From the NCBI GenBank assembly GCA_937920495.1, contig CALEUQ010000018.1, positions 28,436 through 92,435 on the forward strand: DNA of 64,000 nt, in the 5' to 3' direction. A program made the position numbers and the translations under genes. Positions 52,423-63,777 of the stretch are shown in pieces (the stretch's first letter is position 1; the number at the start of each line of letters is the position of its first letter). Below the pieces are notes generated by a model. It was not told the DNA's origin and ran no database searches. It worked only from the letters and a program-made list of their open reading frames with translations. The stretch is from an uncultured bacterium (GTDB lineage: Bacteria > Spirochaetota > UBA4802 > UB4802).

Positions 52423-53613
52423 TTATGTCGTATATCCCCAATCTTGCTTTATTAAACTTAAGCATACGCCATGGGCTATTGAATCTGTTTTGATGCGCTG
52501 AAATTCCATTAATGCTCGCTTATACATAGTAATGTAACCTGTATCATGAAAAATTTCTTTTATGTTACTATCTATCTGTGAAACTGGATCATCATATATT
52601 TCAAATAAATCACCGGTGAGAAGAATGTAATCGGGTGAGTAAACATTAATCACATCCAGCAACGCTTCGGAAAAAAATTTTAGTGCTGTATCCAGTGTAT
52701 CAAATATACCGTCAGTTCTGTCAGTGTAATGCGTGTTAAGTTTTGCTATTATATTATCATAACATTCATCTTTGTCTATGGTGTCTTTTTCCTGCAAAAG
52801 TTTGACAAATGACTCGTAAGAAAAATAACAATCCAGGCAACCATTTCTGCCACAGACACATCGGTGGTTATCATCCGTGACTTTTATATGGCCAATTTCA
52901 CCTCTACTATTAACTATCGCCCCCTTATAAATTAATCCGATTGCACTTGCAGCACGTGCAGAAACAACCATAATCCTATCATAGCGCTGAGTGATGTCAG
53001 TTGTTGATACAATATATGAAATCATACTGCTAATATTATGGTCAAAAAATATGCGTGTATTGGGAAATTTACTGCGTAAAATTTCATAAAAATTAAAATT
53101 CTTTAACTGCGGCATGAGTGTATATGAACGTAAGATGCCGTTCTTTGTATCAATATCACCTGGTACTGTACAGCCAACAGCTACAAGATTGGCTAAAAAC
53201 ACAGGATTTTGTGATAACACTTCATCAATTTGCTTCAGTAACACGCGGGTAAATTCATCTTTTGAAATACTGCTTGAAATGCCAACTTTTGCTGTTGCTA
53301 AAACTTTGTTGCTGAAACTTACTATGGATGTGTACACTGCTTTTTGATTGAAGGTTATTCCCAGATAAACCTGCTTTTCATGATTGAGAGTAAAGAATTC
53401 TGCTTTACGGCCTTTTTCTTTCTGTTTGCCTTCAGTAGGTATGATAATACCGGTATTCTTTAATATTTTAAACGAAGTCATTATGGTATCCATTGAATAT
53501 CCTGCATACCGTTTTGCTTCAGCTTTTGACAATATAGGGTGATGCCTGAAGATATCGACGATATGTTTGCGTTTATTTTCTTTACGCTTGTTGATCTTTT
53601 CACCGTGTGCCAT
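52423..53613 (-). CDS. ROK family transcriptional regulator
   Basis: N-terminal HTH, ROK sugar-kinase-like domain, C-x-C-G-R-x-G-C-L-D-C zinc motif (CVCGRNGCLDC). Confidence 0.9.
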   Translation of the reverse strand: MAHGEKINKRKENKRKHIVDIFRHHPILSKAEAKRYAGYSMDTIMTSFKILKNTGIIIPTEGKQKEKGRKAEFFTLNHEKQVYLGITFNQKAVYTSIVSFSNKVLATAKVGISSSISKDEFTRVLLKQIDEVLSQNPVFLANLVAVGCTVPGDIDTKNGILRSYTLMPQLKNFNFYEILRSKFPNTRIFFDHNISSMISYIVSTTDITQRYDRIMVVSARAASAIGLIYKGAIVNSRGEIGHIKVTDDNHRCVCGRNGCLDCYFSYESFVKLLQEKDTIDKDECYDNIIAKLNTHYTDRTDGIFDTLDTALKFFSEALLDVINVYSPDYILLTGDLFEIYDDPVSQIDSNIKEIFHDTGYITMYKRALMEFQRIKTDSIAHGVCLSLIKQDWGYTT

Positions 53614-53640
53614 ATCATAGCTCCTAAAATGATAATTTTC

Positions 53641-53670
53641 TTGACATATTATCGATAACGATTTTATTAT
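53641..53670 (+). promoter_or_regulatory. Promoter with embedded operator between ROK regulator and MFS transporter
   Basis: TTGACA-18 nt-TATTAT with ATCGATAACGAT in the spacer. Confidence 0.6.
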
Positions 53671-53762
53671 TAAAGCAGCAAATTTATATTTTATCTTATA
53701 ACATTATTGCATATACTTTTTACTTATGCAACAATTTTTTACAATTTAAAATAGGTGGGCAT

Positions 53763-55202
53763 ATGAATCAAGAAAGAAAAATAACTTTTAAAAATTTATT
53801 ATCGTATGGTGTTGGCGATATCTTTGGCGGGGGTTCTTTTGTAATAATAAATCTTTTATTCATCTATTTTTTAACTGATATTGCAAAATTGAATCCTGCT
53901 CTTGCTGGCCTTGTTGTACTGGCAGGTAAAGCCTGGGATGCAATCAGTGATCCTATAATGGGATACATCTCGGATACTACTAAGTCAAAATACGGAAGAC
54001 GAAGAATATTCTTTTTGCTGGGGATATTCCCAATCATTCTGAGCTTTATAGCCATGTGGATACCTTTTTCATCAGAAAACCAGTTAATCAAATTTAGCTA
54101 TTATGCCATTGCATACATATTTTTCAGTACTGCCTTCACCATGGTAATGATTCCATATTCGGCACTCAATGCTGAGATGACGCGAGATTATAAAGAAAGG
54201 ACGCGGCTGTCAGGCGCGCGGTTAATTTTTTCACAGTTCTCGTCGCTTATTTCAGGTACTGTACCAAAGATGATAGTTGATGCATTTCCTGATAAAAGTA
54301 ATGGCTTTTTAGTAATGAGCATGGTATTTGCTGTGTTTTTTGCAATTCCATGGGTTATAGTGTTTTTTGGAACATGGGAAATGCCTGATGTGCAGGTGGA
54401 AAATAAATCACTTATAGATTTTTTTAAAAATCTTCTGATTATATGGACAAACAAATCATTCAGGGTTCACATTGGTTTGTATATCTTTGCGTATTCAGCT
54501 CTTGATTTAGTCATGGCAATGTTTATTTATTATCTTACATATTATATTCAAAAGCCACAGATATTCACCATGTGTTTAGGAGCAATGCTCGTGGCGCAGG
54601 TGTCGTTTCTGCCAGTATATGTTTTTATTGCAAATAAAAAAGGGAAGGGCTTTTCATATCGTACAGGGGTAAGTATATGGGCGATAGCTCTTGTGAGCAC
54701 TCTTTTGTTTGATAGCAGCACTCCGCTATATTACATTATTACCCTTTCAGCAGTGATGGGAGCAGGCATGTCAGCAGGGACAATGATACCGTGGGCAATT
54801 TTGCCATCTGTGACAGATGTTGGCGAACTGATAACGGGAAAACAACAGGCGGGTGTGTATGCAGGTGCTATGACTTTTATACGGAAGCTGGTACAGGCAA
54901 TCGTGCTGGCAATATTTGGTGCTGTGCTACAGGCTATAGGATATAAAGCAAATACGGTGCAATCACCTGAAACACTGGAATATTTACGATTACTGTTTGC
55001 ACTGGGACCATCAACATTGATGCTCATTGGCATTGTTATTTCATTGCAGTTTAAGATTACACCTATTACACATCCAATATTAATTCAGGAAATTAACAGA
55101 TTGAAATCCGGTGGAAGTAAAGCATCAGTAGACCAAAAAGTTAAGGAAATCTGTGAAGCGTTAACCGGCTACAAGTATGAAAATCTTTTTAAAAAGCAGT
55201 AG
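53763..55202 (+). CDS. GPH family MFS transporter, candidate sulfoquinovose/SQ-glycoside importer
   Basis: GKAWDAISDPIMGYISDTTKSKYGRRR signature of GPH sugar:cation symporters; cluster context. Confidence 0.85.
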   Translation: MNQERKITFKNLLSYGVGDIFGGGSFVIINLLFIYFLTDIAKLNPALAGLVVLAGKAWDAISDPIMGYISDTTKSKYGRRRIFFLLGIFPIILSFIAMWIPFSSENQLIKFSYYAIAYIFFSTAFTMVMIPYSALNAEMTRDYKERTRLSGARLIFSQFSSLISGTVPKMIVDAFPDKSNGFLVMSMVFAVFFAIPWVIVFFGTWEMPDVQVENKSLIDFFKNLLIIWTNKSFRVHIGLYIFAYSALDLVMAMFIYYLTYYIQKPQIFTMCLGAMLVAQVSFLPVYVFIANKKGKGFSYRTGVSIWAIALVSTLLFDSSTPLYYIITLSAVMGAGMSAGTMIPWAILPSVTDVGELITGKQQAGVYAGAMTFIRKLVQAIVLAIFGAVLQAIGYKANTVQSPETLEYLRLLFALGPSTLMLIGIVISLQFKITPITHPILIQEINRLKSGGSKASVDQKVKEICEALTGYKYENLFKKQ

Positions 55203-62196: not shown

Positions 62197-62284
62197 TTTG
62201 GTACAATGTCATCCTGATTTTGATTCCAAATCAAATGTAGTATGATACTATCAGCTAAATTTGAGTTTCAAAGGAGAATAGACT

Positions 62285-63229
62285 ATGAGTTATCAAGATA
62301 TGGAAATGCGTGCAGTGTATGGATTAACATTGTGTGAACTTATAGAACAAAATAAAAATGTATTGTGTCTGGAAGCTGATTTAAGCAAAGCATCAGGAAC
62401 AAATCCAACTGTATGCACTGCACATCCTGAGAATTTTATAAACGTTGGTGTTGCTGAAGCAAATATGATTGGTGTAGCAGCTGGATTGGCACGTGAAGGC
62501 AAAATTCCTTTTTGTGCAAGCTTTACATGTTTTGCATCGCGAAGGGTGTATGATCAGATAACCATAAGTGTAGCGTATGCCAATACCAATGTTAAGATAG
62601 TAGGAACAGCACCTGGCATTACCCAGGGACCAAACGGTGGTACACACATGGATTTTTTGGATTTAGCTATTATGCGCGCCATGCCTAATATGCATGTGTA
62701 TAGTCCATGTGATGTTTTTGAACTTAGAGCCATGATGAAATATATGGCAACGCACTATCAACCAACATATATGCAGCTTTTGCGTGCAAAGATGCCTGTT
62801 GTATTTAATGAAAGTTTTGAGTTTAATCCTGAAAAAGCTACCATAGTGTCAGGCGGTAATGATGTAACAATTGTTACCACAGGATATACTACACACTTAG
62901 CAGTTAAAGCTGTAGAACAATTACAAAAAGAAGGAATAAAAGCAGAGCATATTCACTACAGTTCAATAAAGCCATTTGATATTAGCACACTACTTTCTTC
63001 AGCACAAAAAACCGGGGCGGTAGTTACTGTTGAAAATCAGAGTGTTATTGGAGGGTTAGGGGGTGCCGTGTGTGAGGTGCTCAGTGAACATTATCCTGTA
63101 AAAGTAAAACGCTTAGGTGTGCCTGATGCCTTTGGTGAAGTTGCTACAGAAGATTATTTGCTCAACAAACATGGTTTTAACGTGGAGCATATTATAGAAG
63201 CGTGTAAAAATATTATTAGCAGTAAATAG
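62285..63229 (+). CDS. Transketolase C-terminal subunit (candidate sulfo-transketolase SqwG/H-type)
   Basis: LEADLSKASGTNPT, INVGVAEANMIGVAAGLA, GGTHMDFLDLAIMRAMPNM. Confidence 0.88.
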   Translation: MSYQDMEMRAVYGLTLCELIEQNKNVLCLEADLSKASGTNPTVCTAHPENFINVGVAEANMIGVAAGLAREGKIPFCASFTCFASRRVYDQITISVAYANTNVKIVGTAPGITQGPNGGTHMDFLDLAIMRAMPNMHVYSPCDVFELRAMMKYMATHYQPTYMQLLRAKMPVVFNESFEFNPEKATIVSGGNDVTIVTTGYTTHLAVKAVEQLQKEGIKAEHIHYSSIKPFDISTLLSSAQKTGAVVTVENQSVIGGLGGAVCEVLSEHYPVKVKRLGVPDAFGEVATEDYLLNKHGFNVEHIIEACKNIISSK

Positions 63230-63303
63230 ATTTCCGACCCCTTTGTGGTTTTGAAATCACACAATATACAATATATGTTATAATTTTACTTACGGAGGCA
63301 AAG

Positions 63304-63777
63304 ATGAATTTTGTGATTGGTTCAACCCGTGCGGGATTGCAGTTAAAACGTGCAATTATAGAATATCTCACTAAACAGGGTCATCAGGTTGAAGATGTGG
63401 GAATGAAAGATGAAGAACATTTTGTACCATATCATATAGCTGCTGCAAATGTAGCAAAGCTCATATCACAGGGAAAATATGAAAAAGGAATTATTATATG
63501 TGGAACAGGAGCGGGGAGTGCAATTGTTGCAAATAAATTTAAGGGTGTATACGCTGTACATTGCACTAACTCGTATGAGGCTAAAAAAGCATCAGCCATT
63601 AACAATGCAAATGTACTTGTTCTTGCTGAATGGCTTACACCAGCCAATCATGCATTTGAGATAATTAATGATTGGCTTTCAACACCATTTGGAAGTGGAT
63701 TTGACCAGGATTGGCAAAAATTTTTGGCCAACTGTATTAATGAAATAAAAGATATGGAAGAAAAGAATTTTAAGTAG
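63304..63777 (+). CDS. RpiB-like isomerase (candidate 4-deoxy-4-sulfoerythrose isomerase)
   Basis: RpiB family: IIICGTGAGSAIVANKFKGVYAVHC; canonical DH and H99 positions replaced. Confidence 0.8.
   Translation: MNFVIGSTRAGLQLKRAIIEYLTKQGHQVEDVGMKDEEHFVPYHIAAANVAKLISQGKYEKGIIICGTGAGSAIVANKFKGVYAVHCTNSYEAKKASAINNANVLVLAEWLTPANHAFEIINDWLSTPFGSGFDQDWQKFLANCINEIKDMEEKNFK

Follow-up and report, generated by a model that had tools for sequence, protein, structure and literature searches.

A cluster of nine genes in the genome of an uncultured spirochaete very probably encodes catabolism of sulfoquinovose (SQ), a plant sulfosugar, by the sulfo-transketolase (sulfo-TK) route, as judged from homology and gene linkage. 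The cluster lies at positions 52423-63777 of the window, by which we mean the whole 64,000-nucleotide stretch analyzed (contig CALEUQ010000018.1, positions 28,436 to 92,435 of the forward strand, assembly GCA_937920495.1). The complete explanation that we favor, and consider moderately probable, joins this sulfo-TK core to oxidation of its sulfoacetaldehyde product by an aldehyde:ferredoxin oxidoreductase (AOR) and to export by a DASS transporter. Sulfo-TK metabolism in spirochaetes has already been published (PMC12890257; PMC13219744); what is new here is a transketolase (TK) clade that is not sister to other spirochaete SqwGH, the lack of a known terminal enzyme, and the occurrence of an AOR in a related operon.

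Predicted import, hydrolysis and isomerization of sulfoquinovose

All nine open reading frames (ORFs) were found at their expected coordinates, and Pfam and NCBIfam profile scans verified the gene families called in a first-pass annotation of this DNA. The first gene, for a ROK-family regulator, is on the minus strand, and the remaining eight are all on the plus strand, as had been claimed, with intergenic gaps of -7 to 253 bp. Sibling genomes keep the order ROK/GPH-ISO-GH31-MBL-DASS-TKN-TKC-RpiB (ISO, isomerase; TKN and TKC, N- and C-terminal TK subunits), with protein identities of 71-93%, which argues that the cluster is not a chance assembly; the locus is present in 5 of 6 genomes of the genus.

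The GH31 enzyme (56522..58507) scores 899 bits against the YihQ model NF007746 (cut-off 553) and 704 bits, with 48% identity, against the YihQ structure in the PDB. We take Q262, Q288, R301, W304 and Y508 of YihQ to form the sulfonate pocket, and D405 and D472 to be catalytic; in the alignment all seven residues are kept. In E. coli xylosidase YicI, used as a control, W304 is conserved and Q262, Q288, R301 and Y508 are not. By its sequence, this protein is predicted to be a YihQ-type sulfoquinovosidase. The GPH/MFS-2 symporter (53763..55202; PF13347, 244 bits) shares 23-24% identity with YihO and YihP of E. coli and is a probable importer of SQ or SQ glycosides.

For the isomerase (55212..56528), which has the fucose-isomerase fold, the sole NCBIfam match is the SQ isomerase SftI (NF048012), with a score of 236 bits where the model requires 700, marking it as a divergent relative of SftI/SqvD. 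Its homologues in other spirochaetes (45-60% identity) adjoin transaldolase-like genes, SauS/SqwKL genes or GH31 genes, a setting that fits an SQ isomerase, and in family f3 the isomerase adjoins a TK of the window type. The relatives found with transaldolase-like genes (L128, L129, L134 and L136, sulfo-transaldolase type, from the same phylum) indicate that the pathway type varies within Spirochaetota.

A dedicated split transketolase and RpiB-family isomerase

The locus encodes a split TK, whose N-terminal subunit (61342..62196; PF00456), an analogue of SqwG/H, carries the thiamine diphosphate motif GDG-N at residue 152, and whose C-terminal subunit (62285..63229) matches PF02779/PF02780. 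A second split TK pair is present in the genome on contig C35, 48% and 34% identical to the window subunits. In the phylogenetic tree the window TK falls in a clade of 14 rows with 100/100 support, which it shares with the SQ-linked TKs found in families f3 and f6 and with TKs from one of the Lentisphaerae and from Desulfobacterales, and the housekeeping TKs, including that of C35, branch elsewhere. The window pair is thus predicted to be a dedicated SqwGH analogue, apart from the housekeeping enzyme.

Other spirochaetes have loci of the type found in L063, with the order ISO-SqwG-SqwH-SqwI-SauS-SqwKL-DASS, whose TKs branch near those of Treponema. Membership of the window-type TK in this spirochaete SqwGH clade is rejected by the approximately unbiased (AU) test, a test that presumes a group named in advance: the forced grouping has p 0.0045, in trees built without the characterized Clostridium sp. 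MSTE9 sequences. This rejection of a single group suggests that a TK was recruited to the SQ pathway twice.

The cluster ends with an RpiB-family isomerase, the family of SqwI (63304..63777; PF02502). Its orthologues at 68% identity or above occur solely in genomes with the window-type TK. Sibling genomes also carry a separate RpiB, 37-39% identical, which was not found in the window's own assembly (94% complete). Both TK and RpiB are therefore paralogues distinct from housekeeping copies. Together with the GH31 pocket, this supports, as far as sequence goes, the sulfo-TK reading of the first-pass annotation against the refuting conditions named there; the annotation was also right that every step to sulfoacetaldehyde is encoded, and in suggesting a spirochaete host (a 93%-identical relative is a Spirochaetota bacterium). 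Its remark that the combination with DASS, MBL and ROK matches no familiar SQ cluster needs correcting for DASS and ROK: other spirochaete sulfo-TK loci, such as L063, carry both, and the layout by itself is no novelty.

Window-type TKs also occur in other settings. At L006:5099-14369 (Lentisphaerae GWF2_44_16) the split TK accompanies RpiB, DASS, a SauS-type dehydrogenase and a succinate-CoA-ligase-like gene. A class II aldolase and two NagB-like genes are close by; SQ isomerase and GH31 are not there, and the locus possibly serves a different sulfosugar or an amino-sulfosugar. In Desulfobacterales (L007, L009-L014) the split TK (66-69%) occurs without SQ genes, beside TRAP transporter genes in L010 and L011 and, in L011, also with short-chain dehydrogenase and histidinol-dehydrogenase-like genes; in these sulfate reducers the genes may function in the breakdown of sulfonates or polyols.

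In the pathway that we propose, the GPH transporter would import SQ glycosides, GH31 would release SQ, and the isomerase would convert SQ to sulfofructose. The split TK would then make two C2 transfers to glyceraldehyde-3-phosphate (GAP), giving two xylulose-5-phosphate, with RpiB converting sulfoerythrose to sulfoerythrulose between both TK steps, and the remaining product would be sulfoacetaldehyde.

No known terminal enzyme for sulfoacetaldehyde reaches its cut-off in this genome

Known sulfo-TK pathways end either with SqwF, giving isethionate, or with SqwD and SqwKL, giving sulfoacetate (PMC9594981, PMC12890257, PMC11659671). Neither terminal enzyme is in the cluster, SauS/SqwD and SqwKL are absent from the genome, which is 94% complete, and no genome protein reaches the cut-off of the Xsc or SarD models; that is, no known sulfoacetaldehyde-consuming enzyme is found in the operon, nor at family cut-off in the genome. 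The DUF4867 (SqvB) protein of L063 also has no match in the window genome. SqvB has been reported for the majority of sulfo-TK clusters and not all (PMC9594981), and so is not strictly defining.

We considered the possibility that SqwF or SqwD lies beyond the end of the contig, which coincides with window position 64000. Contig C51 overlaps this end by 141 bp and opens with a CapA-like gene and one for an acyl-CoA dehydrogenase; the same genes follow RpiB in L004 and L005, the two closest named relatives. The possibility was rejected, since by this gene order the cluster ends at RpiB and the contig break hides no terminal enzyme. L005 was deposited as 'Leptospira biflexa isolate SulCav'; across the locus it shares about 78-90% identity with the window spirochaete, and the record probably represents a metagenome-assembled genome under a wrong name.

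An AOR clade linked to DASS and sulfonate genes

A candidate for the missing step comes from the operons of relatives. In G151, which belongs to another family (f6) of the same taxonomic order, the arrangement is GPH-ISO-GH31-(small genes)-AOR-DASS-TKN-TKC-RpiB, parallel to that of the window; AOR-DASS-TKN-TKC is contiguous also in G183 and G192, making three f6 genomes altogether, and AOR-DASS-TKN is contiguous on a metagenome contig (L223). The window genome encodes an AOR at C2:35709-37532 that is 53% identical to the f6 operon AOR, the other AORs of the same genome being 30-34% identical. The C2 protein matches AFOR_N (225 bits) and AFOR_C (395 bits) over its full length. The close AORs all carry the motif RGGSH[HQ]DxR, which is absent from every paralogue checked, and they form a monophyletic clade with 100/100 support.

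Members of this clade are also found near taurine-aminotransferase-like genes. In G147 and L217, GntR-AOR-DASS precedes the gene for a class III aminotransferase that among PDB structures best matches taurine:2-oxoglutarate aminotransferase, and a taurine-aminotransferase-like gene adjoins the AOR in L221 and L237. Transamination of taurine yields sulfoacetaldehyde, so two sources of this aldehyde converge on the one AOR clade. The loci at L199:8420-13976, L217, L221 and L237 combine an AOR with a taurine-aminotransferase-like gene, with DASS too in L199 and L217, and are a possible taurine-to-sulfoacetate pathway. The DASS transporter of the window (59840..61285; TIGR00785/PF00939) has homologues adjoining SauS and SqwKL, AOR and TK, or AOR and taurine-aminotransferase-like genes. 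A close AOR and a window-type TK co-occur across the order: 8 genomes have both, 3 have the AOR alone, 2 have the TK alone and 37 lack the two (Fisher p 1e-5, without correction for kinship).

From the operons of relatives we consider it fairly likely that the unlinked C2 AOR, probably a tungsten enzyme, oxidizes sulfoacetaldehyde to sulfoacetate, a substrate assignment drawn from gene neighbors, and that DASS exports the product; the electrons would be kept as reduced ferredoxin. The wider proposal, which we hold slightly less firmly and regard as only just the likelier case, is that this undescribed tungsten AOR clade is a sulfoacetaldehyde oxidoreductase working with a DASS exporter, as a third sulfo-TK ending and as the ending of a taurine pathway, with electrons passing to ferredoxin, and that the window TK was recruited independently of other spirochaete SqwGH. 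A link between AOR and sulfoacetaldehyde was not found in the literature searched, which did not extend to subscription articles such as Chu et al. 2023.

Several observations weigh against this explanation. In the window genus the AOR is unlinked to the SQ locus and lacks the shared upstream operator; the isomerase and the window-type TK occur without a close AOR in G076 and G167, and a close AOR occurs without the SQ genes in G147 and G163. Some clade members stand in unrelated contexts (a thiamine pyrophosphate (TPP) enzyme with DASS and a zinc alcohol dehydrogenase; an iron alcohol dehydrogenase; none), and with such varied settings the clade members need not all share a substrate. The isomerase score is well under the SftI cut-off, four iron-dependent alcohol dehydrogenases above the Pfam cut-off are present in the genome, and in a sibling genome that has lost the pathway (G002, below) every AOR is gone, so that the loss is not specific. 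In L212, L213, L214, L216 and L250, an AOR of the same clade is near an acetolactate-synthase-like TPP enzyme, in most of them with DASS and a zinc alcohol dehydrogenase.

Alternative explanations

The four alcohol dehydrogenases bear on the strongest alternative, which keeps the sulfo-TK core and has one of them, unlinked and SqwF-like, reduce sulfoacetaldehyde to isethionate, the ending of Clostridium sp. MSTE9. In the rumen, Sphaerochaetaceae produce isethionate via sulfo-TK (PMC13219744), and one of the four scores 219 bits to the sulfoacetaldehyde reductase SarD. The SarD cut-off is 700, however, and each of the four scores better to another alcohol dehydrogenase family; the locus has no SqwE-type exporter, and its DASS is of the type found elsewhere with SauS/SqwKL or AOR. 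We consider this ending unlikely. It is quite improbable that the operon AOR of relatives instead oxidizes GAP, as CbGOR does: sulfo-TK uses up GAP and AOR-family enzymes with GAP activity exist (PMC13328260), but the match to the GAPOR model is weak (51 bits, where the cut-off is 1300), and GAP plays no part in the pairing of this clade with a taurine-aminotransferase-like gene and DASS. That the substrate is a related sulfosugar such as sulfofucose, which the divergence of the isomerase and the absence of SqvB/DUF4867 from the locus would allow, seems less probable still given the complete YihQ pocket of GH31. Finally, routine gene names point to ordinary alpha-glucoside and pentose-phosphate genes, a reading made highly improbable by the four pocket residues that YicI lacks, the SftI-like isomerase, the status of TK and RpiB as second copies in the genus, and linkage kept in a second family.

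Regulation and a degraded sibling locus

A promoter/operator-like element, TTGACATATTATCGATAACGAT (53641..53662, plus strand), stands upstream of the GPH gene and is kept in 6/6 genomes of the genus compared; a near-copy, TTGACATATTATATCGATATCGAT (59779..59802, plus strand), stands upstream of DASS and is kept in all 5 genomes compared. The shared element was not found upstream of the MBL or AOR genes. Its two positions suggest that GPH-ISO-GH31 and DASS-TKN-TKC-RpiB are separate transcription units sharing a single regulator, which is probably the divergently transcribed ROK protein (52423..53613, minus strand; PF00480, NagC/Mlc-like), a probable SQ-responsive repressor.

In the sibling genome G002 the same chromosomal site has ROK, GH31, MBL, CapA and acyl-CoA dehydrogenase genes, and GPH, ISO, DASS, TK and RpiB are all absent. 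Two traces persist between MBL and CapA: a remnant of TKN, weakly matched over 39 residues (E 0.005), and 41 bp that are 93% identical to window sequence downstream of RpiB. Together they point to gene loss and not primary absence. The G002 genome has no AOR whatever, and its GH31 has Gln at the position of the sulfonate-binding Arg301 of YihQ. In this single genome the losses make up one coherent set. This degraded SQ locus of G002 (L285:1764-2458 and 5759-6323) also has the promoter sequence conserved.

The MBL-fold hydrolase (58761..59771), with an HGHVDH motif at residue 75, has an MBL paraoxonase as its best PDB match (74 bits). The first-pass annotation had counted it in the SQ locus, where the gene does lie; it is retained in G002, where the pathway is lost, and so is probably an accessory protein and not a core pathway enzyme. 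A role as a sulfoacetaldehyde enzyme or as a substitute for SqvB is not supported, the gene being absent from the f6 pathway genomes and kept in G002.

Discussion

The proposed pathway is closest to the oxidative sulfo-TK variant of Acholeplasma, which consists of SqvD, SqwGH, SqwI, SqwD and SqwKL (PMC11659671, PMC12890257, on Chu et al. 2023). The two share the split TK, RpiB-type isomerase and YihQ, with a divergent candidate for the SQ isomerase in the window, as well as sulfoacetate as the product proposed here, and spirochaete members with DASS exist (L063). Unlike that variant, the window genome is without SauS/SqwD, SqwKL and SqvB, and its TK is in another clade than that of the spirochaete members; with a ferredoxin-linked AOR in place of SqwD and SqwKL, no ATP would be made from sulfoacetyl-CoA. 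The reductive variant of Clostridium sp. MSTE9 and rumen Sphaerochaetaceae (PMC13219744) is alike in the steps to sulfoacetaldehyde, but the window cluster lacks SqwF and SqwE and has DASS.

Among characterized tungsten enzymes, the C2 AOR resembles the class I AOR of P. furiosus (1aor) in its full-length homology (379 bits) and in having no adjoining gene for a ferredoxin-like small subunit; it differs in its separate clade, its RGGSH[HQ]DxR motif and the linkage of the clade to DASS and sulfonate genes. The aliphatic sulfonate oxidoreductase of P. furiosus (WOR5/PfASOR, class II) shows that a tungsten oxidoreductase can have a sulfonate as its substrate (PMC13328260), but it is more distant from the C2 AOR (239 versus 379 bits) and has a second subunit.

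SQ is produced at about ten billion tonnes per year (PMC12890257). Which organisms can form sulfide from it depends on the C2 sulfonate left as end product. If true, a ferredoxin-linked ending would shift the energy balance of anaerobic SQ use, with low-potential electrons or hydrogen set against NADH or ATP. A physiological role is known for 5 of 92 clades of the AOR family (PMC13328260), and the ending proposed here would, if true, provide one for a further clade, with the AOR-DASS pairing as a simple genomic marker.

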